Shown here in pieces: positions 599-42,272 of a stretch of 64,000 nt of DNA; position 1 is the first letter of the stretch; each line of letters starts with the position of its first letter. The notes under the pieces were generated by a model, which saw nothing but the letters and a program-made list of their open reading frames with translations, searched no databases and had not been told where the DNA came from. The stretch comes from Alistipes sp. (GTDB taxonomy: Bacteria > Bacteroidota > Bacteroidia > Bacteroidales > Rikenellaceae), in the NCBI GenBank assembly GCA_017398555.1, contig JAFQFV010000025.1, positions 1 through 64,000 on the forward strand, given 5' to 3'. Position numbers and translations under genes: made by a program.

Positions 599-675
599 TT
601 TTGTCGTCAAAAGGGGTTAGATGCAACGCTCGGCAAAAAAATCCGACAATGGATAGTATTTATTGGTACAGCCAT
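599..675 (+). repeat. Palindromic 3'-end repeat, truncated copy
   Basis: The left arm (TTTTGTCGTCAAAAGGGG...) and the core up to GCCAT are present, then the right arm is missing. It is followed at once by a second, complete copy at 707-835. The flank before this copy (from 569) and the flank before the next copy (from 675) are alike, so a segment of about 106 bp has been tandemly duplicated. Nothing coding is seen in 479-835 apart from these repeats. Confidence 0.75.
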
Positions 676-706
676 ATGATTTGCACGACGATTCATCCAC
701 GCACCA

Positions 707-835
707 TTTTGTCGTCAAAAGGGGTTAGATGCCACGCTCGGCACAAAAAATCCGACGATGGATAGTACTAAAGCGTACAGCCATTGTCGGATTTTTTTGC
801 TAGCGGAAGCAGATATGCCCCTTTTCACGGCAAAA
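707..835 (+). repeat. Palindromic 3'-end repeat, complete copy (mlaF)
   Basis: The outer ends TTTTGTCGTCAAAAGGGG and CCCCTTTTCACGGCAAAA pair over 18 positions with one C-C mismatch and one T-G pair. The inner stem is AATCCGACGATGG / CCATTGTCGGATT with A and T tracts outside it and a core containing GTAC-TAAAGC-GTAC. The right end touches the stop codon of mlaF with no gap. The inner hairpin with its T tract should act as an intrinsic terminator in either direction. Confidence 0.85.
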
Positions 836-1585
836 TCATTTTCCTCGAGCGCGCTTGGCCATCGCAGAGGCAAACACAAAATCATTAAGTTCCTTATTAT
901 CGGCATTCAAGATATCATCTTTAGTACCCTCCCACCACTTATAGCCGGTGTGGATATAGACAATTTTCTCGCCAATCTCCATTACGGAGTTCATATCGTG
1001 AGTATTGATGATGGTTGTGATATTATACTCGCGAGTAATACTCTGGATAAGGTTATCAATAACGATACTTGTCTGCGGGTCGAGACCTGAGTTTGGCTCA
1101 TCGCAGAAGAGATAGCGCGGATTGAGCACGATAGCGCGGGCGATAGCTGCACGCTTAATCATACCACCCGAAAGTTCCGATGGATAGAGGTGTGGTGCGT
1201 GCGAAAGCTCCACGCGCTCAAGGCAGAACTCTACCCTCTCGCGCTTCTCGGCCTCACTCTGCTCTGTAAAGAGGTCAAGAGGCAACTTAACATTCTCAAA
1301 GACGGTCGAAGAGTCGATAAGTGCGCCGCCCTGGAATATCATACCGATATCTTTGCGGATAGCCTTACGAGCCTTAAAGCCCAAGTCGGTATAGCAGACA
1401 TCATCGAAGTATATAGAGCCCTCATCGGGTTCATGCAGACCGACTAACGTCTTGAGTAACACCGTTTTACCCGAACCACTACGACCGATAATAAGGTTTG
1501 TCTTACCCGTCTCAAAAGTTACGGATATATCGTTGAGCACCGTACGGCCATCGAACGATTTGAATATATTCTCACACTTAATCAT
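836..1585 (-). CDS. mlaF: MlaF-type ABC transporter ATPase
   Basis: A 249-residue ABC ATPase of the Mla/Ttg2A family, which powers phospholipid traffic between inner and outer membrane together with an MlaE permease and an MCE protein. Visible motifs are Walker A GRSGSGKT (about residue 34), the signature ELSGGMIKRAAIARA, Walker B RYLFCDEPNSGLDP and the switch histidine in NTHDMN. Its start codon overlaps the stop of mlaE by four bases, so the two are translationally coupled. The gene ends exactly where a palindromic repeat begins. No MCE-domain gene (mlaD) follows, although one is commonly next to this pair in related genomes. Confidence 0.93.
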   Translation of the reverse strand: MIKCENIFKSFDGRTVLNDISVTFETGKTNLIIGRSGSGKTVLLKTLVGLHEPDEGSIYFDDVCYTDLGFKARKAIRKDIGMIFQGGALIDSSTVFENVKLPLDLFTEQSEAEKRERVEFCLERVELSHAPHLYPSELSGGMIKRAAIARAIVLNPRYLFCDEPNSGLDPQTSIVIDNLIQSITREYNITTIINTHDMNSVMEIGEKIVYIHTGYKWWEGTKDDILNADNKELNDFVFASAMAKRARGK

Positions 1586-2316
1586 CGCATCAACTGTGTT
1601 AAGAGGAGGTTAAATATCATAATCATAATAGAACTTACAACCACCGCAGTAGTCGAAGCCTTACCCACCTCAAGCGAATTACCCTTGGTATAGTAGCCGT
1701 AATAGCCTGATATAGAGGTAATAAGGAATGCAAAGACGGTCATCTTGACAAGTGAGTAGAATATCTCGTAGCTATCGAAGTAGTAGAGAAGTCCGTCGAT
1801 GTAGTCATTTGGAATCATCACACCCATACGGGCTACCAAAAAGCCTCCAAACATACCCACAATCATACTAAATGCTGCGAGAAACGGGAAGAAGATCATC
1901 GTTGCAATAATCTTTGGCAGGATAAGGTATGCCGCAGAGTTCACACCCATAATCTCCAGAGCATCAATCTGTTCGGTAATTCGCATAGTACCAATCTCCG
2001 AAGCGATGTTACTACCCACCTTACCTGCGAGGATTATGGCGATGACTGTTGATGAAAACTCAAGAATCATTGTCTCCTTTGTCGCATAACCGATCATAAA
2101 CTGCGGAATAAACGGCGACTCAAGGGTGATTGCCATCTGAATAGTAATTACCGCACCGATAAACACCGAGATAATCGCCGTCAGTGGAATTGAGCCGACA
2201 CCAAGCTGATCCATCTCAGATATCACTCGCCTATAGTATATGCTCCATTTCTCAGGGCGAGAAAAGACCTTGCCCATCAAAATAATATAGCGACCAAAAG
2301 CTGCTAAAATCTTCAT
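1582..2316 (-). CDS. mlaE: MlaE-type permease
   Basis: A 244-residue integral membrane protein of the MlaE/YrbE family, the permease of the Mla phospholipid transporter. I place the start at ATG 2314-2316 (MKILAAFGRY) rather than an upstream TTG. Family hallmarks are an N-terminal amphipathic helix followed by several hydrophobic helices, a conserved segment FSSTVIAIILAGKVGSNIASEIGTM-like in the middle (GKVGSNIASEIG) and EQIDALEIMG, the cytoplasmic coupling region that contacts the ATPase. It lies 31 bp after the DUF4834 gene and overlaps mlaF, so the three are probably one leftward operon. Confidence 0.93.
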   Translation of the reverse strand: MKILAAFGRYIILMGKVFSRPEKWSIYYRRVISEMDQLGVGSIPLTAIISVFIGAVITIQMAITLESPFIPQFMIGYATKETMILEFSSTVIAIILAGKVGSNIASEIGTMRITEQIDALEIMGVNSAAYLILPKIIATMIFFPFLAAFSMIVGMFGGFLVARMGVMIPNDYIDGLLYYFDSYEIFYSLVKMTVFAFLITSISGYYGYYTKGNSLEVGKASTTAVVVSSIMIMIFNLLLTQLMR

Positions 2317-2347
2317 AAACAATATATTACAACTCTAAAATATAGAG

Positions 2348-2677
2348 TTACTCCTCCTTAAAATCGACATACTCACCCACATCGTCGCTCACCTTCGGCT
2401 CCTGACGCGGAATATGAACAGTCACCTTGCCCTCCGGCTTTGCGCCACCCGGATTAGCCTGCGTACCGCCAGAGTTTGGCTCGTGCATACTCTTCTGCAC
2501 ATTGCGCAGACGATGGAGCATTACCGCAGTTCCGATAGCAAGAATAAGTATCGGAACAATCATCAACAATGCAATCAATCCGAAAAATTGCGGTGCTGCA
2601 ATAATAAGCATCACAACCAGCACCGTTGTAAACGGATTTCTACGGATAATATCAAACAAATTACTAAAAAATCTCAT
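2348..2677 (-). CDS. DUF4834-like small membrane protein
   Basis: A 109-residue protein with a central hydrophobic stretch (about residues 17-53, probably two closely spaced membrane helices) and a charged, Gly/Pro-rich C-terminal tail ending in DDVGEYVDFKEE. Length, layout and tail resemble the DUF4834 family found in Bacteroidota; its function is unknown. It is the first gene of the likely operon with mlaE and mlaF, which suggests but does not prove a role at the envelope. Confidence 0.65.
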   Translation of the reverse strand: MRFFSNLFDIIRRNPFTTVLVVMLIIAAPQFFGLIALLMIVPILILAIGTAVMLHRLRNVQKSMHEPNSGGTQANPGGAKPEGKVTVHIPRQEPKVSDDVGEYVDFKEE

Positions 2678-2812
2678 ATCAATAAAACGAACAAATCGTC
2701 AAGATAGTGCAAAGATAGTGATTTTTTTGCAATTTACTATCAGCCAATGAAGTTTGGCTTCTGAAAGAGATTCATCAAAGATGAATTTATGTCTGTTTTG
2801 GCGTCAAAGCTG

Positions 2813-2913
2813 AAAATGTTCAAGAATAATTTTGGCGTCAGAGCGGGGTAAACCGACACGAAAGCAACTCAGAGCTAAAAATGTTCAAGAATAATTTTGG
2901 CGTCAGAGCGGGG
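2813..2913 (+). repeat. Tandem direct repeat flanking a palindromic element
   Basis: A 36-bp unit (AAAATGTTCAAGAATAATTT followed by TGGCGTCAGAGCGGGG) occurs at 2813-2848 and again at 2878-2913, 65 bp apart. The second unit carries the left end of the complete palindrome at 2895-3020; the first carries only the end. The rest of the 2678-3024 gap shows no gene. Confidence 0.8.
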
Positions 2914-3020
2914 CAGATACTCCGCTCGGCATATAAAACAACGAAGGGCTGTACTTGTTGTACCGCCCTTTGTTGATTTTATATGTTAGCGGAGATAGGT
3001 GCCCCGCTATCACGCCAAAA
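2895..3020 (+). repeat. Palindromic 3'-end repeat, complete copy (rplI)
   Basis: Ends are TTTTGGCGTCAGAGCGGGGC and GCCCCGCTATCACGCCAAAA, i.e. the usual TCG is replaced by GCG on the left and the pairing partner is changed to match on the right. The inner stem (ATATAAAA..CAACGAAGGG) is unrelated in sequence to other copies yet complementary. The core GTAC-TTGTT-GTAC appears inverted relative to other copies. It lies 4 bases downstream of the rplI stop codon. Confidence 0.82.
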
Positions 3021-3024
3021 TGGT

Positions 3025-3465
3025 TTACTCCTCTGCTGTAACTGTAAGAGCCACCTCAGCCTTAACCTCGCGGTGAAGCTTAACAGTAGCCTTGTACTCA
3101 CCTACAGTCTTGATACCCTCAACAGAGATGTTCTTCTTATCAACCTCAATGCCCTTAGCAGCGAGTGCCTCAGCAACATCAGCAGAGGTGATAGAACCGA
3201 AGATACGACCCTCCTCAGCCTTAACAGCGAAAGCGAGGTTGAGGTTCTCGAGAGTTGCAGCCAGTGCCTGAGCGTCAGCAAGAATCTTAGCATCCTTGTG
3301 AGCGCGCTGGCGGAGGTTCTCAGCCAATACCTTCTTTGCAGAAGCGGTAGCAGCCTTAGCGAAGCCCTGTGGAATCAGGTAGTTGTTAGCGTAGCCAGGA
3401 CGAACATTTACAATGTCGTTAGCGTAGCCCAAGTTCTCTACGTCCTTAATCAAAATAATCTCCAT
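3025..3465 (-). CDS. rplI: 50S ribosomal protein bL9
   Basis: A 146-residue bL9 with the expected two-lobed layout. The N-terminal rRNA-binding lobe reads MEIILIKDVENLGYANDIVNVRPGYA-like (LGYANDIVNVRPGYANNYL), then a helical linker (KKVLAENLRQRAHKDAKILA), then the C-terminal lobe with GRIFGSITSADVAEAL. It is third in rpsF-rpsR-rplI, 12 bp after rpsR, an order conserved across Bacteroidota. Termination is probably in the palindromic element just after the stop codon. Confidence 0.97.
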   Translation of the reverse strand: MEIILIKDVENLGYANDIVNVRPGYANNYLIPQGFAKAATASAKKVLAENLRQRAHKDAKILADAQALAATLENLNLAFAVKAEEGRIFGSITSADVAEALAAKGIEVDKKNISVEGIKTVGEYKATVKLHREVKAEVALTVTAEE

Positions 3466-3477
3466 AGTGCCTCCTCC

Positions 3478-3756
3478 TTATTTCATACAATCGGTTACGA
3501 ATGGCAGAATTGCGAGGTGACGCGCACGCTTAACAGCCTGAGCAACCTTCTTCTGGAACTTCTGAGAAGTACCTGTAAGACGACGAGGAAGGATCTTACC
3601 CTGCTCGTTGAGGAACTTCTTCAAGAACTCACCATCCTTATAATCTACATACTTAATGCCGAGCTTCTTAAAACGGCAATACTTCTTCTTCTTTACATCA
3701 ACCGATACTGGGTTGAGGTAACGCAGCTCACCTGCCTGATTTACTTCCTGTGCCAT
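3478..3756 (-). CDS. rpsR: 30S ribosomal protein bS18
   Basis: A 92-residue bS18. The core [35 protein letters not shown] and the basic helix [19 protein letters not shown] are classical bS18 sequence; bS18 pairs with bS6 on the 16S rRNA platform. The start ATG lies only 3 bp after the rpsF stop codon, so the two partners are made from one message. An N-terminal extension of about 20 residues ([19 protein letters not shown]) is common in this phylum. Confidence 0.97.
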
Positions 3757-3759
3757 AGT

Positions 3760-4107
3760 TTACTCTTCAGTGTTTTTGTTAGCAAGCTTAGCACGACGAC
3801 GGTCAGCGTACTCCTTAGCGTACTTGTCCTGCTTGAAAGTTAAGAAACGGATAATGCGCTCGTCGCGACGATACTGGGTCTCAAGGGTGTTGATGATTGA
3901 ACCCTCACCAGTGAACTCTACCAGGAAGTAGAAACCGGTGGACTTCTTCTGAATTGGATATGCGAGCTTACGAAGGCCCCAGTTCTCCACATTCACAATA
4001 GATCCGCCGTTCTCAGTAATGATACCCTGGAATTTGTCAGCAACCTCTGCTACCTGAGCCTCAGAGAGCACCGGAGTGACAATGAAAACGGTTTCGTAAT
4101 TGTTCAT
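3760..4107 (-). CDS. rpsF: 30S ribosomal protein bS6
   Basis: A 115-residue bS6, the partner of bS18 in the small-subunit platform. It begins [19 protein letters not shown] and holds the typical [24 protein letters not shown] core strands, and [14 protein letters not shown]. It is first gene of the rpsF-rpsR-rplI operon and has a well-matched promoter 40-70 bases upstream. The tail ([15 protein letters not shown]) is charged, as usual. Confidence 0.97.
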
Positions 4108-4145
4108 AATGTTTTAATTTTTAGTTATTTGCTACAATAGCGGGG

Positions 4146-4177
4146 CAAAGGTACGCAAAGTTTTTTGAATATTCAAA
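4146..4177 (-). promoter_or_regulatory. Promoter of the rpsF-rpsR-rplI operon
   Basis: Leftward TTTG (4174-4177), 20-base spacer, TACCTTTG (4146-4153), a perfect match to the Bacteroidota consensus, 39 bases before the rpsF start codon. Confidence 0.7.
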
Positions 4178-4237
4178 GGTTTTCTAAAGTTTTTGCTCAA
4201 CAATCTTTGAATATTGACCGTTGGCTTTTGGCTATTA

Positions 4238-4282
4238 GCTATTGACTCACCTATGGCGACCCTTCACTGCTCCGCCTCGGCA
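4238..4282. repeat. Dispersed intergenic repeat, short segment
   Basis: The stretch ending CTGCTCCGCCTCGGC is repeated with few changes at 34371-34415, also beside a palindromic element. It is followed at 4345-4380 by another shared piece (TTTGCAC..ACTCATTTGTCG) seen again at 15694-15730 and 42005-42034. These look like debris of a composite repeat; I see no open frame in 4178-4372. Confidence 0.6.
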
Positions 4283-4372: not shown

Positions 4373-4497
4373 ATTTGTCGTCAAAAGTGCGTAGATGTGG
4401 TATATCGTGAAAAAAATTAGTGCCGGATAGTACCAAACGTACAGCCGACACTAATTTTTAAGGGATATGCCGCAGATGCGTGCTTTTCACGATAAAT
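4373..4497 (+). repeat. Palindromic 3'-end repeat, complete copy
   Basis: Ends TTTGTCGTCAAAAGTGCG and the matching TGCGTGCTTTTCACGATAAA; inner stem ATTAGTGCCGG / CCGACACTAAT; core GTAC-CAAAC-GTAC. It is about 94% identical to the copy at 15723-15847. It is joined head to tail to the next copy, sharing one or two bases at AAATTT. Confidence 0.85.
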
Positions 4498-4619
4498 TTG
4501 TCGTCAAAATGCGGTAGTGGGTGCGCATCGTGAAATATCCCCGGATGGGACATACTAAGCGTATTTCCCATTCGGGGATATGAGGGATGTGCAGCTAATG
4601 CCGTATTTTCACGACAAAT
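4496..4619 (+). repeat. Palindromic 3'-end repeat, complete copy (yeiH)
   Basis: Ends TTTGTCGTCAAAATGCGGTA and TGCCGTATTTTCACGACAAA; inner stem ATATCCCCGGATGGGA / TCCCATTCGGGGATAT; here the core GTAC pair has become ATAC / GTAT, a compensatory double change. It lies 6 bases after the stop codon of the YeiH-type gene. Confidence 0.85.
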
Positions 4620-4625
4620 GTAGAA

Positions 4626-5921
4626 TTAGAAGAGCAAAGGCTTAACAATTCCAAACAACACCCACGCCGCAAAGAATGTAAAGATGATATTGAACAACTG
4701 CGCGCCGAGGAAGGTGTAGAGGATGTTACGATTCTCCTTTGAGACGATATCCTTGAGACGGGTATCCATACCGATACATACGAAGGCAAGCGAGAAGAAG
4801 AATCCTGAGAAGTTCTTCGCCATAGATGTCTCGGCGAGTTTCTTTGCCGCAAAGTCAGGGAATATCTCATAGCTCTGGAGCATGCTGAATACAGCAGATG
4901 CGAGAACGAAGCCCAGAACGAACTTAGGGAACTTCTCCCAAACAATCTTCAGAGATGGACGGTGGAGCTTACCATCACCTGCGCTCTTAGAAGAGAGGTA
5001 GAGTGCGATAAAGAATGCCACAACGCCGATAAGCACATTCTGAGTAGCCTTAACAATCATTGCAATCTTATTAGCCTCATCGCTATAGAGAGCAGATGCA
5101 GCACCCACACCGCTGGTAGTATCGACTGTACCGCCAATCCAAGCGCCGGCAATCTCCTGCTGGATAGCAATATCGTCAGTAAGCAGAGGCACAACGAGCT
5201 TTGCAAGGTAAGGCATGATGTAAATCATAGGCACTACAACAATCAGCACCACTGATACGATATACGAGAGCTTTTTACCATCTGTATTTGCAACGCCGGC
5301 AGCTGTAATACAAGCCGACACACCGCAAATTGAAAGACCAGAAGAGAGGGTCATTGCACTACGCTCATCAACGCCCATCTTCTTTGAGAGGAAGAAGGCG
5401 AACATCCACACGCAGAATACCACTACGCAACCCTGAATAAGGGCGAGCGAACCTGCTGCGAGGAAGTCACGGAAGAGGATTGTAGCACCGAGGCAAACAA
5501 CACCAATCTTGATGAAGAACTCGCCCTGAATAGCAGGCTTAAGCCAATCAGGAATATGGAATAGGTTACGAATAATCAGACCAAAAATTACAGAGAAGAA
5601 TACAGCCTCAAAGCCCCAAGCCTTGATAAAGCCAATCTTTGCAGTCAGCTGTGCCAACATAGATACGGCAAAGACCACAACAAAAGACCAGAACAGACCC
5701 TTCAACGGACGAGAGAGCATTCTATTTCCGACATAGAGCAACACCAATGCAATTACAAAGAGGGCGCCAATATTGAGCCAAGAGTCTGTTTCCAACAGAT
5801 TTGACGAAATTTTAAGCGCATCCTTCGGAAGGAATGTTGCACAACCTGCGATAATCAGAAGAGGGATAGAGAGAAATGTTACAACCCAATCCTCAACTAA
5901 AAATTTCTTAAGTTTTTCCAT
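4626..5921 (-). CDS. YeiH-family putative sulfate exporter
   Basis: A 431-residue polytopic membrane protein of the YeiH/UPF0324 family (Cons_hypoth698), annotated in other genomes as putative sulfate exporters; the substrate is not experimentally settled for most members. About eleven hydrophobic segments are visible. Family features include FKIGVVCLGATILFRDF-like (IGVVCLGATILF), the motif SSGLSICGVSACITAAG and GAWIGGTVDTTSGVGAA. Length matches the family. It is a single leftward gene between a palindromic repeat downstream and a short AT-rich gap upstream. Confidence 0.85.
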   Translation of the reverse strand: MEKLKKFLVEDWVVTFLSIPLLIIAGCATFLPKDALKISSNLLETDSWLNIGALFVIALVLLYVGNRMLSRPLKGLFWSFVVVFAVSMLAQLTAKIGFIKAWGFEAVFFSVIFGLIIRNLFHIPDWLKPAIQGEFFIKIGVVCLGATILFRDFLAAGSLALIQGCVVVFCVWMFAFFLSKKMGVDERSAMTLSSGLSICGVSACITAAGVANTDGKKLSYIVSVVLIVVVPMIYIMPYLAKLVVPLLTDDIAIQQEIAGAWIGGTVDTTSGVGAASALYSDEANKIAMIVKATQNVLIGVVAFFIALYLSSKSAGDGKLHRPSLKIVWEKFPKFVLGFVLASAVFSMLQSYEIFPDFAAKKLAETSMAKNFSGFFFSLAFVCIGMDTRLKDIVSKENRNILYTFLGAQLFNIIFTFFAAWVLFGIVKPLLF

Positions 5922-15490: not shown

Positions 15491-15518
15491 CTCATTTGTC
15501 GTCAAAATGCGGTAGTTA
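15491..15518 (+). repeat. Left end of a palindromic 3'-end repeat (fragment)
   Basis: CATTTGTCGTCAAAATGCGG matches the left end of complete copies, then the sequence switches to the dispersed repeat that starts near 15527. Confidence 0.6.
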
Positions 15519-15526: not shown

Positions 15527-15606
15527 TAAAGATGGATTTTCCTCCTTCGCACCTCGGCATAGTCTGCAAGCAGCCTCTGCTCTCGGTTTGGCGTCGGTTG
15601 TCAAAA
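15527..15606. repeat. Dispersed intergenic repeat, 80-bp segment
   Basis: This segment (CCTCCTTCGCACCTCGGCAT ... GGTTTGGCGTCGG) recurs nearly unchanged at 42043-42128. At both sites it runs straight into TCAAAAG of a palindromic element. It begins with a small hairpin whose arms differ between copies (ATCC..GGAT here, CACC..GGTG there). No coding frame is apparent. Confidence 0.75.
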
Positions 15607-15696
15607 GGTAGTAGTAATTGTGCATCGTGCAAAAAGCAACGGCGGATAGCACTAAAACGTACAGCCGCCGTTGGTTTTAAGGGATGTGCAGCAGAC
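15597..15696 (+). repeat. Palindromic 3'-end repeat, partial copy
   Basis: The inner stem GCAACGGCGG / CCGCCGTTG and core GCAC-TAAAAC-GTAC are intact with A and T tracts, but the right terminus is replaced by the piece shared with 4345-4380. Together with the next copy it fills the gap between two convergent genes (15372-15857), where no gene is seen. Confidence 0.75.
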
Positions 15697-15722
15697 TTGT
15701 ACTCCGTTCAATCTTCGCACTC

Positions 15723-15847
15723 ATTTGTCGTCAAAAGTGCGTAGCTGTGGTGTATCGTGCAAAAAATTAGTGTCGGATAGTACAAGACGTACAGCCGACA
15801 CTAATTTTTAAGGGATATGCCGCAGATGCGTGCTTTTCACGACAAAT
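15723..15847 (+). repeat. Palindromic 3'-end repeat, complete copy (FAD oxidoreductase)
   Basis: Ends TTTGTCGTCAAAAGTGCG and TGCTTTTCACGACAAA; inner stem ATTAGTGTCGG / CCGACACTAAT, perfect here where the sister copy at 4373 has one mismatch. It lies 10 bases after the stop codon of the FAD oxidoreductase gene. Confidence 0.85.
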
Positions 15848-15857: not shown

Positions 15858-17681
15858 TTATCTGTCTTCGGCCTGATGCCCCGTACGATCCACCTGGTGG
15901 TAGAACTGAGTATAAGGGACATCGGTGCGGCCGGTACCCTTACGCATCAACTCCTTAAGGTCCTCGAAGTAGGTTGTATAGACATCGCGTGGGTAGGCGT
16001 CACGGCGTGCGCAGACAGCGGCAGCCATACCTACAACCTCGCCGATAAGTCCACAGGTACGCATAACGCGTGTAGAGCCGAGGGCGATATGTGTTACGGA
16101 GATATTACGGCCTGCCATGAACATATTCTTGATATCCTTAGAGTAGAAGCAACGATAAGGCAGAGCGTAGAAGTCGATTGGTGTCAGCACGCCATAAGAG
16201 AGCCACTCCTGATTTGGATAGTCCTTGCTATTCTTCTCCATAGGATAGTGCTGGTCTATACGCCAAGTGGTTGTACAGGTCTCATCCTCGTGACGAATAG
16301 GACGTGTAAGGTCCTGCTCACGGAGGATATAGTCACCCATAATACGGCGTGACTCGCGCTTACCCGACACGTGGCTTACCCAAGTGAGGTGAGTGCAAGT
16401 CCAATCCTCCTTCTTCGAGTAGCGGTTCTTGCAGTAAGAGAATGTAGAGTATGCCACATACATACCGTAGTCACGAATCTTCTCGGCATCGGCCACCTGG
16501 TCATCCATCATACCAACCTCCCAATACCAATTTGCGCGGTGTACAGGCTCTACGGTGTACTCATCCAGGCGCAAGCCCCAATCGAGTGAGTCAGGGAAGT
16601 CGCAAGGAGTATTCCAATCCTCGCAGTACCACTCGATAGATACACCCATAGTCATATCATCCGCCTTCTCAGGGGCCAGACGCTCATCGAACTCCGAGCG
16701 TGCCTCACGACCCATACGGCACTCTGCACCGGCCATATAACCGAGGTGTGCATCACCTGTACAGTCAGAGAAGTACTTACCCGAAATCTTTATTCTGTTC
16801 TGTGCTGTCGCCTCCTGAGCCACTACAGATACAATCTTATCGTCATCCTTCTCCACCTCAATTACGGTGTAACCCATAAAGAGCGAGATATTCTTCTCTG
16901 CCAGCACAACCTTCATCTTCTTATCATCCTGATAGTGGTGTGCACCGCGGGCATTACCAATGCGGTCAGGGCCAATCTCATTGAGCAGATAACCGAGTGA
17001 TGGATATGGGTCGATATTAATCTGACCACCAAGACCTACGCGCACCTCTGAAGAGTTGTTGCCACCAAGTACATATCTATCCTGAATAAGCGCCACCTTA
17101 AGACCCAAACGAGAGGCTGCAAGAGCTGCACAGATGCCGGAGATACCGCCACCGACAACCACAAAGTCGTAGTTACCCTTATCCTCAACTACAGGCTTGC
17201 CGAGCAGCGCCTCACGCAACTCAAAGTACTCCTCAAGGCTCTCTGACGGCACATAATCCTCAGTTGTAAGGATTACCGCGTCACAACGACCGTCAAAACC
17301 TGTCAGGTCGTGCAGTGCAATAGTGTGCTCGCCGGCTGTAAGGGCAACCTTACCACCACGCTGCCAATACCAATTCACAGAGTCTGTACCATAAGTTGTA
17401 CCATCACTCTGTCCGTCAATAAGCACCGAGAAGATACCCGGCGTAGGACCGTCTGACCAATGCTTTGTCCAGTTCTTTGTACGAACCAGAACGTTGTACT
17501 GCCCATCTGCAGGCACTGTCACGGTTGTCACAGCATCCTTTTGCAGCGGAGTACCAATTCCGTGAGCTAAAAGATAAGAAGAGCCCATCTGCAGAACAAA
17601 CTGCTGCTCTACTATCCAATCGCCCTTATCTGCGAATGTTGTCGCAAGGGCCATTACCGAATTTGTAGTGTTCAGTTTCAT
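15858..17681 (-). CDS. FAD-dependent oxidoreductase with N-terminal beta module
   Basis: A 607-residue protein of the FAD_oxidored (PF12831) type. The first 140 or so residues form a beta-rich, carbohydrate-binding-like module (TVPADGQYNVLVRTKNW, LTAGEHTIALHDLTGFDGRCDAVILT). The FAD site starts with DFVVVGGGISGICAALAASRLG, near residue 175, and is followed by the conserved GGNNSSEVRVGLGG and DCTGDAHLGYMAG. A late motif is FMAGRNISVTH. Such proteins are often near polysaccharide- or sugar-degrading genes in Bacteroidota; the substrate is unknown. No signal peptide is visible. It follows dut by 33 bp and may share its transcript. Confidence 0.8.
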   Translation of the reverse strand: MKLNTTNSVMALATTFADKGDWIVEQQFVLQMGSSYLLAHGIGTPLQKDAVTTVTVPADGQYNVLVRTKNWTKHWSDGPTPGIFSVLIDGQSDGTTYGTDSVNWYWQRGGKVALTAGEHTIALHDLTGFDGRCDAVILTTEDYVPSESLEEYFELREALLGKPVVEDKGNYDFVVVGGGISGICAALAASRLGLKVALIQDRYVLGGNNSSEVRVGLGGQINIDPYPSLGYLLNEIGPDRIGNARGAHHYQDDKKMKVVLAEKNISLFMGYTVIEVEKDDDKIVSVVAQEATAQNRIKISGKYFSDCTGDAHLGYMAGAECRMGREARSEFDERLAPEKADDMTMGVSIEWYCEDWNTPCDFPDSLDWGLRLDEYTVEPVHRANWYWEVGMMDDQVADAEKIRDYGMYVAYSTFSYCKNRYSKKEDWTCTHLTWVSHVSGKRESRRIMGDYILREQDLTRPIRHEDETCTTTWRIDQHYPMEKNSKDYPNQEWLSYGVLTPIDFYALPYRCFYSKDIKNMFMAGRNISVTHIALGSTRVMRTCGLIGEVVGMAAAVCARRDAYPRDVYTTYFEDLKELMRKGTGRTDVPYTQFYHQVDRTGHQAEDR

Positions 17682-19926: not shown

Positions 19927-21384
19927 ATGGGTAAATTGACTTCTCTATTCAAGAGTATTCTTAAGAGTGATGCCGAGGTTGAGCCTACACCAACCGCACC
20001 TGCACCTGCACCTGCACCTGTTCCGGAGCCGAAGACAGATGACGCTCCAAAAACAGATGATGCTCCCGCAGCCGACGTTGAACCAAAAGATGTTGAGCCA
20101 AAGACGGATGACACACCTGCTACTGACGACGAGCCAACAACTGACGATGCCCCTGCGGCCGATGTCGAGCCAAAAGATGACGAACCAAAGGCAGACGACA
20201 CTCCTTCAGCCGATGTCGAACCGAAAGATGACGAACCAGCAGACGTCGAGCCGAAAGATGACGAGCCGAAGGCTGACGATACTACAGATGTAGCGACCGA
20301 GGCTGACCCACAGCTCGACACAGACCCCGTTACAGAGCCTGAGTCCGAGCCTGAGGTTGTTATCGACCTCGATAAGCCTGAGCGCCGTTTGGTAACGAGC
20401 GTTGAGGAGGATTGGGGCTACATTGTCGGCTTCTCTATTCAGGGTCGTAGCCACATCTCCGGCGGCACACCTTGTGAGGATTACCACGCATATAAGGAGT
20501 TTGCTCCGGGCTGGAAACTGCTTATCACCTCTGACGGTGCGGGCTCGGCACGTGAGTCAGCTCGCGGCTCAAAGGCCAATTGCGACCTTGCCGTGCGCCT
20601 TGTTTCGCAGCTTGTTGCACAGAAGCAGTGGGTTGAGAAGAACTATATGCCGACAGAGTTAGAGTGGTTTGCCGAGATGCGCAATCTCTTCGCTGTGATG
20701 CAGCATCTGATTATCGCCTCAGCAGCAAAGCAGGCAGATGCCTACAAGATGGGCAAGGAGGAGGAGCTCAAGGCCCTTGAGGAGCAGATTGCCAAGACTA
20801 CAGACGACATAAAGCTCGCAAAACTGAAGGTCAAAAAGTCTGATATCGAGAAGGATATCGAAAAACCACTTGAGGCACGCGACTTCAACGCAACAATTAT
20901 CCTCATGCTGCTCACTCCGCAGGGTATGCTCACAGCACATATCGGCGATGGCCGTATGGGCTACAAGGCACAGGATGGCAGCTGGAAGGCGCTGATGACC
21001 CCACATAAGGGCGACGAGGCTTCGGCTACCGTATTTATCCCGAATAATTGGAACGACCAGCGTTGCGTACCTGCATTTACCATGTCTGATGTCTATCTGC
21101 CTGATGTTCGCGTAGTACACGAACTTCCGCAGGCAGTTGTACTGATGAGCGACGGCTGCGAGAATATCACTTGGAGCTGCTACGCACAGGATAAGGAGAC
21201 AGGCCGCTACTACGACCCTAACCTCCCATTTGCAGGCTTCTTCGAGCCACTTTTGGAGGAGATGAATAGCGCCGCCGATAAGGATGCTCGCGCAGAGCGC
21301 CTGATTGAGATTATCAATGTCGGCACACGCGCAGGCAAGCAGGAGCACGACGACAGAACAATGCTCTTCGGCGTTCTGAAGTAA
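19927..21384 (+). CDS. PP2C-family phosphatase with acidic repeat tail
   Basis: A 485-residue protein. Residues 1-14 are basic; residues 15-150 are a low-complexity Pro/Asp/Glu/Lys region made of reiterated DDAPAADVEPKD-like units; residues 160-485 are a PP2C_2 phosphatase domain. Metal-site motifs are CEDYH (D185), LLITSDGAGSARESARGS (D203), HIGDGRMGY and VVLMSDGCENI, with a closing EHDDRTM. It corresponds to YegK in the E. coli yegIKL set and would reverse phosphorylation by the downstream kinase. An insert of charged helices (about residues 275-315) lies inside the catalytic domain. The repeat tail may be a flexible, negatively charged tether. Confidence 0.87.
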   Translation: MGKLTSLFKSILKSDAEVEPTPTAPAPAPAPVPEPKTDDAPKTDDAPAADVEPKDVEPKTDDTPATDDEPTTDDAPAADVEPKDDEPKADDTPSADVEPKDDEPADVEPKDDEPKADDTTDVATEADPQLDTDPVTEPESEPEVVIDLDKPERRLVTSVEEDWGYIVGFSIQGRSHISGGTPCEDYHAYKEFAPGWKLLITSDGAGSARESARGSKANCDLAVRLVSQLVAQKQWVEKNYMPTELEWFAEMRNLFAVMQHLIIASAAKQADAYKMGKEEELKALEEQIAKTTDDIKLAKLKVKKSDIEKDIEKPLEARDFNATIILMLLTPQGMLTAHIGDGRMGYKAQDGSWKALMTPHKGDEASATVFIPNNWNDQRCVPAFTMSDVYLPDVRVVHELPQAVVLMSDGCENITWSCYAQDKETGRYYDPNLPFAGFFEPLLEEMNSAADKDARAERLIEIINVGTRAGKQEHDDRTMLFGVLK

Positions 21385-30360: not shown

Positions 30361-30487
30361 TTTTGTCGTCAAAATGTGTTAGAGATGGTGCATCGCGTAA
30401 AAAGCCCAGCGATGGATAGTACTAAAGCGTACAGCCATTGCTGGGTTTTTAGGGATGTGCCATATATGACACATTTTCACGACAAAT
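30361..30487 (+). repeat. Palindromic 3'-end repeat, complete copy (infC)
   Basis: The cleanest copy: TTTTGTCGTCAAAATGTGTT pairs with GACACATTTTCACGACAAA, GATGGTGCATCGC with GGATGTGCC, and CCCAGCGATGG with CCATTGCTGGG; core ATAGTACTAAAGCGTACAG. It lies 11 bases after the infC stop codon, between convergent genes. Confidence 0.87.
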
Positions 30488-30498
30488 GTCGCTAAAAT

Positions 30499-31092
30499 CT
30501 AATTCTTCTTTGGCTTTGGCGCAAGAATCATATTCATCTTCTTACCCTCCAAAGTTGGCATAACCTCAACCTTTGCAATATCCTCAAGGGCTGTTGCAAA
30601 GCGGAGGAGAAGAATCTCGCCCTGCTCCTTAAATACGATACTACGACCGCGGAAGAAGACATACGCCTTGACCTTTGCACCCTCCTTGATGAAGTTCTCG
30701 GCGTGGCGGAGCTTAAAGTTAAAATCGTGGTCATCTGTCTGCGGACCGAAGCGAATCTCCTTGATTACCACCTTGGTCTGCTTTGCCTTAATCTCCTTCT
30801 GCTTTTTCTTCTGCTGATAGAGGAACTTCTGATAGTCAACGATGCGACATACCGGAGGCTCGGCATTTGGAGAGATCTCGACCAGGTCGAGCTCCATCTC
30901 ATCAGCCAGGGCAATAGCCTTAGCGATAGGGAGAACAAGGTTTGGCTCAACATTGTCGCCTACAACACGAACGGTAGGAGCCGTAATCTCGTTATTAATG
31001 CGGTTTGGGTTCTCCTTTACAGGACGACGACCGCGATTTTGATTCCCCTGAGCATTCTGCGGACGGGGAGTAAATGGTTTGAAACCAGCCAT
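30499..31092 (-). CDS. infC: Translation initiation factor IF-3
   Basis: A 197-residue IF-3. The N-terminal domain begins [17 protein letters not shown] and includes [22 protein letters not shown], a strongly conserved stretch; the C-terminal domain has [24 protein letters not shown] and [14 protein letters not shown]. The start is an ordinary ATG (31090-31092), with a basic N-terminal extension of about 30 residues usual in this phylum. It lies 80 bp after thrS. The usual followers rpmI and rplT are absent; a palindromic repeat and a convergent gene follow. Confidence 0.97.
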
Positions 31093-34370: not shown

Positions 34371-34415
34371 GGTATTGGCTCGCCTACGGCGACCCGTCAC
34401 TGCTCCGCCTTGGCT
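34371..34415. repeat. Dispersed intergenic repeat, short segment
   Basis: Second copy of the segment at 4238-4282 (CTGCTCCGCCTTGGC here). At 34428-34461 it is followed by a right-end remnant of the palindromic family (CGCTATCACGACAAAA). No gene is seen in the 34293-34614 gap. Confidence 0.6.
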
Positions 34416-34485
34416 GTTTATTTGGGTTAACGGAAGTAGGTGTCCCGCTATCACGACAAAAGCTAGACCTTCCCCCTGAGTAAAG

Positions 34486-34613
34486 TTTTAGCGTCAAAAC
34501 GCGGTAGGTACAACGCTCAATAAAAAATCCCAGCGATGGATAGTACTAAATCGTACAGCCATTGCTGGAATTTTTTATTAGCGGAAGTAGATATCCGCGT
34601 TATCACGCTAAAA
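34486..34613 (+). repeat. Palindromic 3'-end repeat, complete copy (mutB)
   Basis: Ends TTTTAGCGTCAAAACGCGG and CCGCGTTATCACGCTAAAA: the terminal triplet GTC/GAC of other copies has become AGC/GCT on both sides. Inner stem CCAGCGATGG / CCATTGCTGG. It is one base from the mutB stop codon. Confidence 0.85.
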
Positions 34614-34614
34614 A

Positions 34615-36735
34615 CTACTCAGACAAGATTTCAAGCATCTTAATAGCCGCCGCCGAAATCTTCGAACCAGGGCCGAAGATAGCTGCTGCGCCATCACGAT
34701 AGAGCTGATCGTAGTCCTGTGCAGGGATTACACCACCGACGATAACGATGATATCCTCACGACCGAGCTTACGGAGCTCCTCGATAATCTGAGGCACGAG
34801 TGTAAGGTGACCTGCAGCAAGTGAAGATACACCTACAATGTGTACGTCATTCTCTACAGCCTGCTTTGCAGCCTCTGCAGGGGTCTGGAAGAGAGGACCC
34901 ATATCGACATCGAAGCCGATATCTGCGTAACCTGTTGCTACCACCTTCGCACCACGGTCGTGACCGTCCTGACCCAGCTTAGCAATCATAATACGTGGCT
35001 GACGACCCTCGCGCTTTGCGAACTCTGCGCACATCTGCTTTGCCTTCTCAAACTCTGCATCCTGCTTCATAGCTGAACTATATACACCTGAAATTGAACG
35101 AATTACTGCATTGTAACGGCCTACAACAACCTCGCAAGCGTAAGAGATCTCACCGAGAGTTGCGCGAACCTTAGCTGCCTCAACAGCCAGCTCGAGCAGG
35201 TTACCCTCACCGGTCTCAACACACTTAGTAATTGCTGCCAGAGCTGCATCAACAGCTGCCTGGTCACGGTTAGCCTTAAGCTCATTCAGACGAGCAATCT
35301 GGCTCTCGCGTACTGCGGTGTTATCAACTGCCAAGATATCGATTGGAGCCTCCTTCTCAAGGCGGTACTCGTTAAGACCGATAATCTTCTGCTCACCAGA
35401 GTCGATACGAGCCTGTGTACGAGCTGCAGCCTCCTCGATACGCATCTTAGGGATACCTGTCTCGATAGCCTTAGCCATACCACCAAGCTGCTCAACCTCC
35501 TCGATAAGAGCCCAAGCCTTGTGTGCAATCTCATTAGTCAGGCTCTCAACATAGTATGAACCTGCCCATGGATCTACAGAGCGGCAAACGTTAGTCTCCT
35601 CCTGGATATAGATCTGAGTGTTACGAGCGATACGAGCCGAGAAGTCGGTAGGAAGAGCGATAGCCTCATCCAGAGCGTTAGTATGCAGTGACTGAGTGTG
35701 ACCCAGAGCTGCACCCATAGCCTCGATAGCTGTACGGCCAACGTTGTTGAATGGATCCTGCTCAGTGAGTGACCAACCAGAGGTCTGTGAGTGGGTACGA
35801 AGAGCGAGTGACTTAGGGTTCTTAGGGTTGAACTGCTTAACAATCTTCGCCCACAGCATACGAGCTGCACGCATCTTAGCAATCTCCATAAAGTGGTTCA
35901 TACCAATCGCCCAGAAGAATGAGAGGCGTGGTGCGAAGGCGTCGATAGACATACCTGCGTTGATACCTGCGCGCAGATACTCAAGACCGTCAGCCAGAGT
36001 ATAAGCAAGCTCGATATCGGCAGTAGCACCTGCCTCCTGCATATGGTAACCAGAGATAGAGATTGAGTTGAACTTAGGCATATTCTTCGAAGTGTACTCG
36101 AAGATATCTGCGATAATCTTCATAGAGAACTTTGGAGGATAGATGTAGGTGTTACGCACCATGAACTCCTTCAAAATATCGTTCTGAATAGTACCAGCAA
36201 GCTGATCAAGAGTACAACCCTGCTCAAGACCTGTAACAATATAGAACGCAAGTACAGGGAGTACTGCACCGTTCATTGTCATAGATACAGACATCTTGTC
36301 GAGTGGGATACCGTTGAACAGTACCTTCATATCCTCAACAGAGCAGATAGATACACCTGCCTTACCAACATCACCTACTACACGTGGGTGGTCAGCATCG
36401 TAACCACGGTGTGTAGCCAGGTCGAATGCTACAGAGAGACCCTTCTGACCTGCTGCAAGGTTACGACGATAGAATGCGTTAGACTCCTCAGCGGTAGAGA
36501 AACCTGCATACTGACGGATAGTCCAAGGACGCATTACATACATAGTTGAATATGGGCCACGGAGGAACGGTGCAACACCTGCTGCATAGTTCAAATGCTC
36601 CATACCCTCAAGATCTGCCGCAGTATAGCCATCCTTGACAGATATCTGCTCGGCAGTAATCCAAGGCTCCTTAGTAGCCTCAGCGGTGTGGCAAGCGCCA
36701 CCCTGATATTTCAATTCTGAAAATTTTGCTCTCAT
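34615..36735 (-). CDS. mutB: Methylmalonyl-CoA mutase, large subunit
   Basis: A 706-residue catalytic subunit (also called ScpA) that interconverts succinyl-CoA and (R)-methylmalonyl-CoA with coenzyme B12, part of propionate formation. The barrel starts with [17 protein letters not shown] and has the substrate-site [15 protein letters not shown]; the C-terminal cobalamin domain shows [15 protein letters not shown] (H of DxHxxG) with [11 protein letters not shown] and [13 protein letters not shown]. It follows mutA by 12 bp as expected for the heterodimer. Confidence 0.98.
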
Positions 36736-36747
36736 TGTTTCTGCTGT

Positions 36748-38607: not shown

Positions 38608-38757
38608 AGTTTTTTAAGTTTTGTTTATTGTTTAGGGTAAAAATTGTTTGTCTATTTATAAAATCGCGTAAAGTTAGCCATATTTTTCAAGATTTCAAAA
38701 TATTTTTCGACAAATAGTCACAGAATAGGACTTACACTCCGCTCCACACCCCCATAA

Positions 38758-38786
38758 ACAAAAAAATCCCGCCAATGCAGCGGGAC
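38758..38786 (-). terminator. Terminator of the small lipoprotein gene
   Basis: Stem TCCCGC / GCGGGA, then a leftward run of seven T; about 20 bp after the stop codon at 38805. Confidence 0.75.
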
Positions 38787-38804
38787 TATATATATAAAAG
38801 TTTT

Positions 38805-39230
38805 CTATTGCCATATCATATCTTGACGCTCTTGCCATACCGACTCCCCATTAAGGAAGTAGCTTTCGTGCTCTTTGGTGTTGGCATTCTGAAGTGTCAA
38901 AAGTGAATAGGTTTCGCCATTTGATTGTATTGTTCCTTCCCACACCAACTTACCGGATGTTGGGTCGTTCAGTTTAAGAGCAGGTGCTTGATAATCAAAT
39001 GTGTACGACTCACTTATCAGGTCAGAGTCCTCAGAAACCTCACGCTCCAAAGTGCAGAGTTCGCCCTTGAAATACAATCGCGATTTTTCTAAATCGCCGG
39101 TACATCTCATCCATACCGTTCCGTCAAGGCTTTTGGGTACGCCATATTCATTATTGGAACAGTTTGTCAGAAATAGAGCACAACCTGCAACAAGTAGAGC
39201 AAGCAAGGACTTAAATTTAAGAGTTTTCAT
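38805..39230 (-). CDS. Small lipoprotein of unknown function
   Basis: A 141-residue exported lipoprotein (signal MKTLKFKSLLALLVAGCALF, lipobox LTNC). The mature part is beta-rich: LDGTVWMRCTGDLEKSRLYFKG, then a C-terminal LVWEGTIQSNGETYSLLTLQN. The opening SLDGTVW is the kind seen in lipocalin-like lipoproteins of Bacteroidales, but I cannot name a family. Single gene with its own terminator. The 39231-39518 gap upstream is very AT-rich and holds promoters for this gene and glnN, nothing else. Confidence 0.65.
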   Translation of the reverse strand: MKTLKFKSLLALLVAGCALFLTNCSNNEYGVPKSLDGTVWMRCTGDLEKSRLYFKGELCTLEREVSEDSDLISESYTFDYQAPALKLNDPTSGKLVWEGTIQSNGETYSLLTLQNANTKEHESYFLNGESVWQERQDMIWQ

Positions 39231-39458
39231 AATAAAATGTTTTAGTGGTTAATGTGTGATGTTGAAAATATACTGCCTAACGCAATGCCTCTAATTTTTA
39301 TTATACAATATAAATAAAAAACAATTTTATCCTCCAACTTAATTTCGACAGTTCAAAGCAACAACAAATTAGCCTTTTAACGAAAAACATTAAACGCGAA
39401 ATTTTAATTTATCGAATAACATTAAATCGAATTAAAAATTTACAGATTTTGTATGATT

Positions 39459-39492
39459 TTTGTGCGATTTTTGCAATAAATCTATATATTTG
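39459..39492 (+). promoter_or_regulatory. Promoter of glnN
   Basis: TTTG at 39459-39462, 22-base spacer, TATATTTG at 39485-39492, 26 bases before the start codon. Confidence 0.55.
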
Positions 39493-39518
39493 CACTCAGA
39501 ACATCAACATATCGAAAT

Positions 39519-41693
39519 ATGTCACTACTCAGATTCAGAATGCTCGAGCGAGCACTTGAGCAGAAGGCTGTAGAGGTTACACCTCCGAGCAACAATCCGT
39601 CCGACTACTTTGGCGAGAGAGTTTTTGGTCGCAAGCAGATGCGAAAGTATCTCAACAAGCAGACCTTTGAGGCTCTGATTGCAACTATCGAGAACAACAC
39701 TCCCCTTACGCAGGATGTTGCCGATGCTGTTGCGGCGGGTATGCGTCAGTGGGCGCTGGTGCACGGTGCCGACCACTACTGCCACTGGTTTCAGCCACTT
39801 ACGGGCGGAACAGCCGAGAAGCATGACTCCTTTGCCGAGCCTGATGGTCAGGGTGGACTTTTAGAGGAGTTTTCGGGCAAGGTGCTCATTCAGCAGGAGC
39901 CTGATGCATCGAGTTTTCCGAGTGGTGGTATTCGCAACACCTTTGAGGCGCGCGGTTACTCGGCTTGGGACCCGACATCACCTGCATTTATCGTAGATAC
40001 AACACTCTGTATCCCCACCCTCTTTATCGCCTACAATGGCGAGGCACTCGACTACAAGACCCCGCTGCTGCGCTCCATACAGGCGGTAAATAAGGCTGCG
40101 ACAGATGTCTGCCGCTACTTCGACAAGAGCGTTGAGCGAGTATTCTCATACTTGGGTTGGGAGCAGGAGTATTTTCTCATTGACGATGCCCTTTGGTCAG
40201 CCCGTCCCGACCTTGTGCAGACAGGTCGAACACTGATGGGTCACGAGGCATCAAAGAATCAGCAGCTCGATGACCACTACTTCGGTGCTATCCCTTCGCG
40301 CGTAATTGCATTTATGAAAGACCTTGAGTATGAGTCGCTTAAGCTCGGTATTCCACTCAAGACCCGCCATAATGAGGTGGCTCCAAATCAGTTTGAGCTC
40401 GCTCCGGTATATGAGGAGGCTAACTTGGCAAACGACCACAACCAGCTGCTTATTACAATTATGAATCAGGTGGCAAAGCGTCACCACTTCCGTGTGCTCT
40501 TCCACGAAAAGCCGTTCAAGGGCATCAATGGTTCGGGCAAGCACAACAACTGGTCGCTCGGCACAGATGCAGGCGTCAATCTGCTCAGCCCTGGCAAGAC
40601 CGCCTTTGAAAATTTGCAGTTCATCACATTCCTTGTCAATGTCATCGCTGCCGTATATAAGCACAACGGACTGCTCAAGGCCTCTGTGATGTCGGCAACA
40701 AACGAGCATCGTCTCGGTGCCGGCGAGGCTCCACCTGCAATTATCTCGACCTTCCTCGGCTCGCAGATATCATCTGTATTGGACAAGATTGAGAACTCAA
40801 AGAGCGATGAGGATATCCGCTTCGACTCGAAGAATGTATTCCGCATGAGCGGTCTGACTCAGATACCGTCGCTGCTACGTGACAATACCGACCGAAATCG
40901 CACCTCACCTTTTGCATTTACGGGAAATCGTTTCGAGTTCCGCGCCGTAGGTGCTTCAGATAACTGCGCCGAGGCAATTATCGTCATCAACACAGCCGTT
41001 GCCGAGCAGCTGACGCTCTTTAAGCGCGCTGTGGATGCAAAAATCGAGAAGGGAGAGAAGAAGGAGCGCGCCATCTACGAGACAATCCGCGAGTTGATTA
41101 AGTGGTGTAAGCCTATCCGCTTTGATGGCAACGGTTACTCTGACGAGTGGAGAGCCGAGGCGGCTAAGCGCGGACTTGATTGCGAGGTATCGGCACCGCT
41201 CAACTTCGACCGCTTTACAGACCCTCAGACAGTACGTATGTTCGAGGATATGGGCGTCTATAACCGCGTAGAGCTTGAGGCACGCGCAGAGATTAAGCGC
41301 GAGATATATGTCAAGAAGATACAGATTGAGGCGCGAGTACTTGGCGACCTTGCGATGAACCATATCGTACCTATCGCCTCAAAATATGAGGGCGTGTTGC
41401 TCGACAAGGCGTGGAAGCTCAATCAGCTCCGTATGGACTCTAAGACCGACCGAATACTGATTGAGAATATCCAGACCCGCACAGCTAAGATACAGACCTT
41501 AGTGGCTGAGATGATTGAGTGCCGCAAAAAGGCTAACCGCATCGAGGATATCCGCGAGAAGGCTATCGCCTACCACGACACCGTGGCTGTCTATTTCGAC
41601 ACTATCCGCGAGCAGATTGACCGCCTTGAGGAGGTGGTTGATGACCAAATATGGACACTGCCTAAGTATCGAGAAATTCTGTTTATCAAGTAG
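39519..41693 (+). CDS. glnN: Glutamine synthetase type III
   Basis: A 724-residue GSIII, the long glutamine synthetase typical of Bacteroidota and cyanobacteria. Motifs include the N-terminal domain FGERVFGRKQMRKYL, HYCHWFQPLTGGTAEKHDSF, EQEYFLIDDALW (acidic metal site), KTRHNEVAPNQFELAPVYEEAN, NGSGKHNNWSLGTD (ammonium/ATP region) and NRTSPFAFTGNRFEFRAVG. It makes glutamine from glutamate and ammonia. Single gene with a strong terminator. No amtB or glnK nearby. Confidence 0.97.
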   Translation: MSLLRFRMLERALEQKAVEVTPPSNNPSDYFGERVFGRKQMRKYLNKQTFEALIATIENNTPLTQDVADAVAAGMRQWALVHGADHYCHWFQPLTGGTAEKHDSFAEPDGQGGLLEEFSGKVLIQQEPDASSFPSGGIRNTFEARGYSAWDPTSPAFIVDTTLCIPTLFIAYNGEALDYKTPLLRSIQAVNKAATDVCRYFDKSVERVFSYLGWEQEYFLIDDALWSARPDLVQTGRTLMGHEASKNQQLDDHYFGAIPSRVIAFMKDLEYESLKLGIPLKTRHNEVAPNQFELAPVYEEANLANDHNQLLITIMNQVAKRHHFRVLFHEKPFKGINGSGKHNNWSLGTDAGVNLLSPGKTAFENLQFITFLVNVIAAVYKHNGLLKASVMSATNEHRLGAGEAPPAIISTFLGSQISSVLDKIENSKSDEDIRFDSKNVFRMSGLTQIPSLLRDNTDRNRTSPFAFTGNRFEFRAVGASDNCAEAIIVINTAVAEQLTLFKRAVDAKIEKGEKKERAIYETIRELIKWCKPIRFDGNGYSDEWRAEAAKRGLDCEVSAPLNFDRFTDPQTVRMFEDMGVYNRVELEARAEIKREIYVKKIQIEARVLGDLAMNHIVPIASKYEGVLLDKAWKLNQLRMDSKTDRILIENIQTRTAKIQTLVAEMIECRKKANRIEDIREKAIAYHDTVAVYFDTIREQIDRLEEVVDDQIWTLPKYREILFIK

Positions 41694-41729
41694 TTAGCTG
41701 TTGCGGATTTAAGATACCTTTAGGCTATT

Positions 41730-41792
41730 ACAATAAAAGAAAACCCTTCACTTTCAAGCAAACTTGAGTAAGGGGTTTTCTTTTATTGCACT
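41730..41792 (+). terminator. Terminator of glnN
   Basis: Long stem CAATAAAAGAAAACCC / GGGGTTTTCTTTTATTG around a 20-base inner loop; works in either direction. Confidence 0.8.
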
Positions 41793-42147
41793 ATCTTCGA
41801 TAGCATCCTAAATCCGAAAACAAAAGGCTGATACTAGTACTTAAAAAAATATTGACATTCCCTCCAAACCTCCCTTTGAAAAAGGGAGGCTTAGTCGCAG
41901 AGTTCCTCTGCTCCGGGTGCACAAATCTTTCGGGTTCCCTGGCTACGCAGTACAGCTAACGCAGTAAAAATAGCCAATGGCAAACAATCAATAGCAAATC
42001 AGAGTTTGCACTCCGCTCAATCTGTGCACTCATTTTGTTGACCCACCTAAAGGTGGCTCTTCCTCCTTCGCACCTCGGCATAGTCTACAAGCAGCCTCTG
42101 CCCTCGGTTTGGCGTCGGTCGTCAAAAGTTTAATCAAGATGACGTAA
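41793..42147. other. Gene-free interval with composite repeats
   Basis: No credible coding frame is seen. It holds a small hairpin (CCTCCCTTT-GAAA-AAGGGAGG near 41870), the TTTGCACTCCGCTCAATCTG piece at 42005-42034 shared with 4345-4380 and 15694-15730, and the 80-bp repeat at 42043-42128 shared with 15527-15606. It leads directly into the palindromic element at 42148. Confidence 0.65.
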
Positions 42148-42272
42148 TTTTGTAGTCAGAGCGTGTTAGAGATGGTGCATCGTGAAAAAAATTAGTGGCG
42201 GATAGTACAAAACGTACAGCCGCCACTGATTTTTAAGCGATGTGCCATATATGACACGCTATCACTACAAAA
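42148..42272 (+). repeat. Palindromic 3'-end repeat, complete copy overlapping a stop codon
   Basis: Ends TTTTGTAGTCAGAGCGTGTT and GACACGCTATCACTACAAAA; relative to other copies C has become A on the left and G has become T on the right, and AAAATG/CATTTT has become AGAGCG/CGCTAT. Inner stem AGTGGCGG / CCGCCACT. The right end encodes the last two codons and the stop codon (Ile-Leu-stop) of the C1 peptidase. Confidence 0.87.

Follow-up and report, generated by a model that had tools for sequence, protein, structure and literature searches.

The window, that is, the whole 64-kb stretch of DNA analysed, carries eight complete copies of a palindromic element, all folding as long imperfect hairpins, as the preliminary description had held. 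The folded strand is the plus strand in every case, while the neighbouring genes named below lie on the minus strand. The first hairpin (707..835) adjoins the 3' end of an ABC-transporter gene (836-1585), the second (2895..3020) lies behind rplI, which encodes ribosomal protein L9 (3025-3465), and the next two form a tandem pair, where 4496..4619 stands behind gene 4626-5921 and 4373..4497 is the distal, second member. The others are found at 15723..15847 behind gene 15858-17681, at 30361..30487 behind infC (30499-31092), at 34486..34613 behind a methylmalonyl-CoA mutase gene (34615-36735) and at 42148..42272, where the hairpin shares 8 nt with the terminal part of gene 42265-43434, the stop codon of this gene thus lying inside the hairpin arm. 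Two of these genes were confirmed by Pfam as rplI and infC. The claim that copies lie at stop codons held for most of them, but the 4373-4497 copy sits in tandem behind 4496-4619 and the 42148-42272 copy runs into its gene. The 4496..4619 hairpin is matched over 122 of its 124 nt, at 100% identity, by a copy on contig C30.

Four partial copies, also on the plus strand, had been reported as well. Two were recovered by the HMM, namely 599..675 (model positions 1-73), which is cut by the 707 copy, and 15597..15694, which has lost its gene-proximal arm, whereas those placed at 15491 and 34428 are shorter: a left-arm fragment at 15494..15516, with 23 nt identical to the arm of the 4496 copy, and a right-arm fragment at about 34408..34461 (its start being 34408 or 34410). 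Beside the 15723 hairpin lies a distal box with approximate borders (15695..15722, plus strand), a GAGTGC-N12-GAGTGC-like direct repeat in gene sense, and an 11-bp spacer (30488..30498, plus strand), TTTTAGCG-like and resembling the arm of an earlier hairpin, separates the 30361 hairpin from the infC stop codon. In many bacteria, infC is usually followed by rpmI-rplT; here, it is followed by the hairpin and then by a convergent gene. Elsewhere in the window, two neighbouring leftward genes (60146-61789) are paralogues in tandem, sharing 300-nt blocks of 73% and 83% identity, and gene 19927-21384 contains coding repeats at 20038-20266 with an Asp/Pro-rich period (GATGACGAACCAAAG-like).

The RNA-fold energies of the eight complete hairpins range from -57.9 to -81.4 kcal/mol, and their DNA-fold z values from -6.9 to -12.9, with none of 200 dinucleotide shuffles as good for any of them. 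A covariance model was trained on alignment A2, which contains 57 of the 61 complete copies from loci of the same genome and leaves out three near-copies judged by eye and one shortened copy. Owing to the palindromic nature of the element, orientation was lost when an HMM was iterated over both strands, and oriented seeds were used instead. In the own genome, an 89% complete MAG of 2.03 Mb from a gut bacterium, the model gave 149 matches. On contigs C5, C11, C21, C23, C26, C29, C30, C35 and C38, many copies are found no more than a few hundred bases from the contig end, so that the repeat probably breaks short-read assemblies and its true number is probably higher. The element consists of about 125 nt with several stacked helices, plus an outer box. 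In the 57 aligned copies, which are related to one another, so that copy counts overstate independence, 95.2% of cells are paired (79.5% when shuffled) and the covariation score is 0.507 (0.216 shuffled, 0.04-0.12 slid), the outer and middle arms covarying strongly; pairs changed on both sides numbered 16, a figure reached by 105 of 500 shuffles. The observation that the arms differ widely and stay complementary is borne out by these values. The two outcomes that would have refuted the preliminary description, a family already named and a lack of 3'-end bias and covariation elsewhere, were both looked for and neither was seen; the 3'-end bias and the covariation hold in other genomes.

Of the 61 complete copies in the own genome, 55 have their gene-proximal end directed at a gene 3' end and the other six at a 5' end; one copy scored as 5'-facing directly adjoins the end of a tRNA-Arg gene. 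A second set comprised 80 loci listed among 98 stretches, all from MAGs named 'Alistipes sp.' or 'Rikenellaceae bacterium'. In these 80 loci, 103 of 113 complete copies point toward a 3' end, 7 toward a 5' end and 3 have no called neighbour, genes being called by a simple codon-based gene finder. The hairpin comes within -1 to +1 nt of the stop codon in 15 of 55 own copies and 43 of 103 from the 80 listed loci, and within -25 to +21 nt in 41 and 82, respectively, while the remaining copies are mostly second tandem members, some 127-155 nt from the stop or further. Some copies stand 11 or about 21 nt off the stop codon, and the gap is filled by TTTGTCGTGCA-like units with the appearance of a first arm left from an earlier hairpin. 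A direct-repeat box, with GAGTGC or GGTGC twice about 18 nt apart, adjoins the outer end of many copies and is often followed, further out, by an older hairpin without its gene-proximal arm. From the arm remnants and the armless older hairpins, we infer repeated insertion at the gene-proximal end. A second palindromic repeat of about 80 bp, of the GCCACC..GGCGG / CTTAATCGCAGCGTT type, was also seen at L215 (behind infC of genome G003), with partial copies near 15527-15607 and 42048-42128 of the window, and at L018 and L020. Behind the G003 infC, this repeat breaks up the hairpin's distal arm and is flanked by TGA at either end, in the manner of a target duplication.

The orientation of the element is fixed relative to replication, the folded strand being the leading-strand template. 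In 514 kb of seven own contigs, with the leading strand assigned by GC skew on the assumption that the G-rich strand is leading, 74 of 75 copies share one replication orientation, and in these 74 the folded strand is the lagging-sense strand, i.e. the template of the leading strand. A hairpin lies behind 40 of 114 free 3' ends of leading-strand genes compared with 1 of 84 of lagging-strand genes (Fisher p 1.8e-10), the latter count leaving out two hairpins near lagging-strand genes that faced the wrong way. Over the whole own genome, 127 of 135 copies match the majority orientation of their contig (contigs with at least 3 copies); the skew has the wrong sign for the majority orientation in 4 of 20 non-tied contigs (C10, C12, C21 and C23, with 4-11.5 kb sampled each), and one minority-orientation copy (C33:140543) falls outside the stretches of the 74/75 count. 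The listed copies agree in orientation in G195 (71/74), where the skew of contig C1 is near zero, and in G003 (34/35). In G079, a one-contig chromosome of 3.79 Mb, 19 matches reduce to 15 places, four being the same place on the other strand; these are '+' at 0.04-1.08 and 3.26-3.62 Mb and '-' at 1.82-2.24 Mb, and thus fall in two mirrored chromosome halves, with the skew consistent at 9 of 10 sampled. Both 16S genes of G079 are directed away from the origin implied by copy orientation, which supports the assumption on the leading strand. The preliminary description had noted that copies lie only behind leftward genes and in a single orientation; this is true within the window, and it reflects the replication-strand rule.

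It is the strand antisense to the neighbouring gene whose pairing is conserved. When each strand is folded by itself, the antisense one comes out as more stable in 56 of 57 own copies and 109 of 113 from the 80 listed loci with RNA parameters (mean advantage about 14-18 kcal/mol), and in 57 of 57 and 113 of 113 with DNA parameters. The same holds for 10 of 10 copies in the distant species G079 and for 6 of the 7 diverged hairpins that follow orthologues of infC and rplI, whereas in ordinary 3' regions of the window, taken as a control, the antisense fold is better in only 11 of 36, which is the opposite tendency. In Watson-Crick-only folds of the antisense strand, 1x1 mismatches are G.T rather than A.C by 126:6 in own copies and 231:8 in the 80 listed loci, and by column, counting those seen at least twice in own copies, by 14 to 1. 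On a strand-neutral consensus, the per-column ratios are 21:11 (p 0.11) and 14:5 (p 0.06), neither significant alone, and hence a good part of the G.T excess comes from a few conserved wobble positions. Since the antisense strand folds better, the reverse of what ordinary 3' regions show, it is unlikely that the pairing is maintained through the gene's own mRNA, and an mRNA hairpin of the adjacent gene was rejected as its reason.

An alternative which takes up this polarity is a functional RNA antisense to the gene, transcribed from the outer box toward the stop codon, with the pairing selected in the RNA. The wobble polarity and the covariation would fit RNA pairing, and the hairpin is regular, at about 125 nt. 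Nevertheless, such an RNA would leave unexplained the replication-strand rule and the fact that copies stand only 0-1 nt from genes of different kinds; a promoter motif could not be established for it, and Rfam covariance models gave no match at gathering score anywhere in the window, the single permissive match over an element being mir-B8, at 28.3 bits against a cut-off of 90. This explanation is considered to have a small chance of being right.

The element might also terminate transcription. The T-rich tail behind the core stem is better in the gene-sense direction in 43 own copies versus 5 (of 57) and in 63 versus 23 (of 111) in the 80 listed loci, a pattern which suggests a terminator function read in the sense direction; this putative function would explain why the element is tolerated at gene ends. 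The preliminary description compared the centre to a two-way intrinsic terminator. A T-rich tail is indeed present, but it is polarised, and the pairing is kept on the antisense strand, which termination of the adjacent gene does not require, so that the comparison stands only in part. A scan for promoter and terminator patterns showed no excess over shuffles (26 vs 24.3 promoters, 13 vs 15.4 terminators), and none of the terminators it listed is inside an element. It could be argued that the copies simply terminate transcription of the adjacent gene or protect the 3' end of its mRNA, having spread by recombination and been retained for this function. Besides the sense-direction tail, they occupy the terminator slot, where several infC and rplI orthologues without the element have an ordinary hairpin. 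However, the gene-sense strand pairs more weakly, the reverse of ordinary 3' regions here, lagging-strand genes have almost no hairpin though they also need terminators, and arms distal to the T-tail would be untranscribed if termination worked. Taken together, this account is quite improbable.

Hairpins turn over at the same site between close relatives. G195 gave the best infC match among the 180 genus genomes searched (92% nucleotide identity). When 17 own sites were paired with it, 14 had a hairpin less than 85% identical and 3 had none; in the reverse direction, 16 of 17 differed and one was the same, the two site sets overlapping and many sites being impossible to pair. The one shared hairpin is that at window 42148, which is 92% identical, and 42148..42272 differs from its G195 counterpart by two compensatory double differences in the inner stem. 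At the infC stop codon (the 30361..30487 site), the closest relative found has a different hairpin. Comparison of empty and filled sites against G195 yielded no clean insertion pair with a target duplication. At the same stop codons, relatives G006, G028 and G118 (loci L183, L212 and L223) carry hairpins whose outer arms are quite unlike these (AAATCCGATTTT or TTTTGGATTTTA types), which suggests arm exchange or subfamilies; L183 and L223 keep a GTAC-loop-GTAC-like core all the same.

As regards taxonomic range, the element is present in 21 of 36 other genomes of the genus, which we take to be Cryptobacteroides in GTDB, and absent from the other 15; near-complete genomes such as G180, G186, G073 and G175 are without it, as are all 24 genomes examined from other families. 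Among 393 genomes of the order, matches came from two, the own genome and G493, which belongs to another family. The G493 hairpins stand in tandem, starting at the first base behind a stop codon, and their folded strand is the antisense one. The placement rule is also obeyed at a second G493 site, with 0.33 matches expected by shuffling in 334 kb; in a loose scan of G493 for strong hairpins behind stop codons, 2 of 236 ends fell below -50 kcal, and these were not copies of the element. A motif scan over 251 kb from 20 other genomes (17 of other families, 3 of the same family) gave no match. These data bear on two further explanations. An oriented signal related to replication or the chromosome, following a Chi- or KOPS-like logic and acting when forks and transcription are co-directional, would account for the near-absolute replication orientation and for the presence on 35% of free leading-strand gene ends, but the absence from many close species makes it very unlikely. 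Equally poor is the case for host replication making and swapping the hairpins by template switching, with no dedicated enzyme and the leading-strand template exposed behind a terminating RNA polymerase, a mechanism which would combine co-directionality, 3' ends and rapid co-change of the arms, but the conserved core, conserved mismatches and common outer box point to a specific recognised sequence, and common host enzymes should have produced such elements elsewhere too, whereas of the 392 other genomes in the order just 1 gave a match.

The reading preferred here, with a probability of roughly one half, is that the element behaves like folded, strand-specific DNA and works like REP or attC hairpins. 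It is probably non-autonomous. In this mechanism, it would act as folded single-stranded DNA, through one strand only, and a putative enzyme would recognise the folded antisense strand. New hairpins would be inserted at the slot behind stop codons or into it, in many cases taking the place of the previous one and leaving 11-bp arm remnants. As the core would serve in the sense direction as the gene's terminator, a copy could be tolerated behind stop codons and not elsewhere. Copies would survive almost only with the folded strand as leading-strand template, which is rarely single-stranded, the opposite orientation, with the folded strand on the lagging-strand template, being lost by excision or deletion. 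This retention half of the replication rule draws on the attC precedent and on what is known in general of hairpin instability. Several points count against the folded-DNA reading: the domain and motif searches described below yielded no enzyme for it, a clean pair of empty and filled sites was not obtained, the G.T excess per column is weak on the strand-neutral consensus, the skew disagrees or is near zero on some contigs, and the wobble bias would look alike if the pairing were that of an antisense RNA. A fuller proposal, in which a mobile, strand-specific folded-DNA hairpin targets the stop-codon junctions (and one tRNA 3' end) of co-directional genes and replaces their terminators by means of some enzyme, is tentative and rather unlikely as a whole. 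If it were true, the system would be driven by co-directional replication and transcription, with more than one third of free leading-strand gene ends occupied.

The usual interpretation of palindromic repeats behind genes is that they are RNA elements or transposon leftovers. Since pairing is kept on the strand that is not the mRNA and the replication-strand rule is near absolute, this element offers a testable case of repeats as single-stranded DNA substrates, with the replication fork deciding on their persistence. It also suggests that the terminators of about one third of leading-strand transcription units can come from an element turning over between close species.

In agreement with the preliminary description, no named family for the element was found in Rfam or in the literature searched. 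A retron or other reverse transcriptase as its engine was rejected, since PF00078 occurs in 7 of 9 copy-free genomes as well as in 7 of 12 copy-rich ones. To our knowledge, ERIC, YPAL and other MITE-like palindromes of enterobacteria follow no replication-strand or antisense-pairing rule; they belong to other taxa and have other sequences. ERIC and YPAL resemble the element in length (127 bp and 168 bp), intergenic position and many copies (PMC2759123). IS200/IS605 ends and their non-autonomous derivatives are likewise strand-specific folded DNA with a replication-strand preference (PMC6006769), but their active strand is on the lagging-strand template, whereas the folded strand here is the leading-strand template (74/75); with no PF01797 in the own genome either, membership was rejected.

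REPs come closer. According to PMC3733652, they are high-copy palindromes of 20-40 bp, with a stem of 8-9 bp (CGTC) or 5-13 bp (GTAG), which in two species analysed lie mostly less than 20 bp from 3' ends, with the stop codon in some cases supplied by the REP itself, and the CGTC super-family, without known transposase, occurs in Bacteroidetes. The element is also a high-copy palindrome near gene 3' ends, and its antisense strand often starts with an arm ending in ..CGTC. It differs in its size of about 125 nt with several stacked helices, and in its usual single tandem orientation in place of head-to-head dimers; moreover, its CGTC-like string is paired (C7, G8 and T9 of alignment A2, only C10 being in a C.C mismatch), while the GTAG or CGTC tag at one end of a REP is unpaired. 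The RAYT domain (PF01797, Y1) had no match in the 89% complete own genome, the control being found in 5 of 14 named genomes. On account of the wrong size, the paired tag and the lack of PF01797 in the own genome, membership of the GTAG or CGTC REPs was rejected.

Regarding integrons, a tyrosine-recombinase motif was matched nowhere in 719 kb of partly overlapping own stretches and once in the named loci, and the element is dispersed behind core genes (infC, rplI), not in cassette arrays as attC sites are. The attC box motif is RYYYAAC/GTTRRRY, and such boxes were found within 16 nt of the ends in none of 57 own copies and none of 111 from the 80 listed loci, on which ground membership of attC was rejected. 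In PMC5371416, attC sites are described as recognised by structure and recombining as folded bottom strand, which in sedentary integrons is mostly on the leading-strand template. Like them, the element is an imperfect hairpin behind an ORF, in one orientation, with the folding strand antisense to the ORF and on the leading-strand template. Since the hallmarks of both attC and REP fail but their logic matches, the element is described here as an unnamed family which would work like them.
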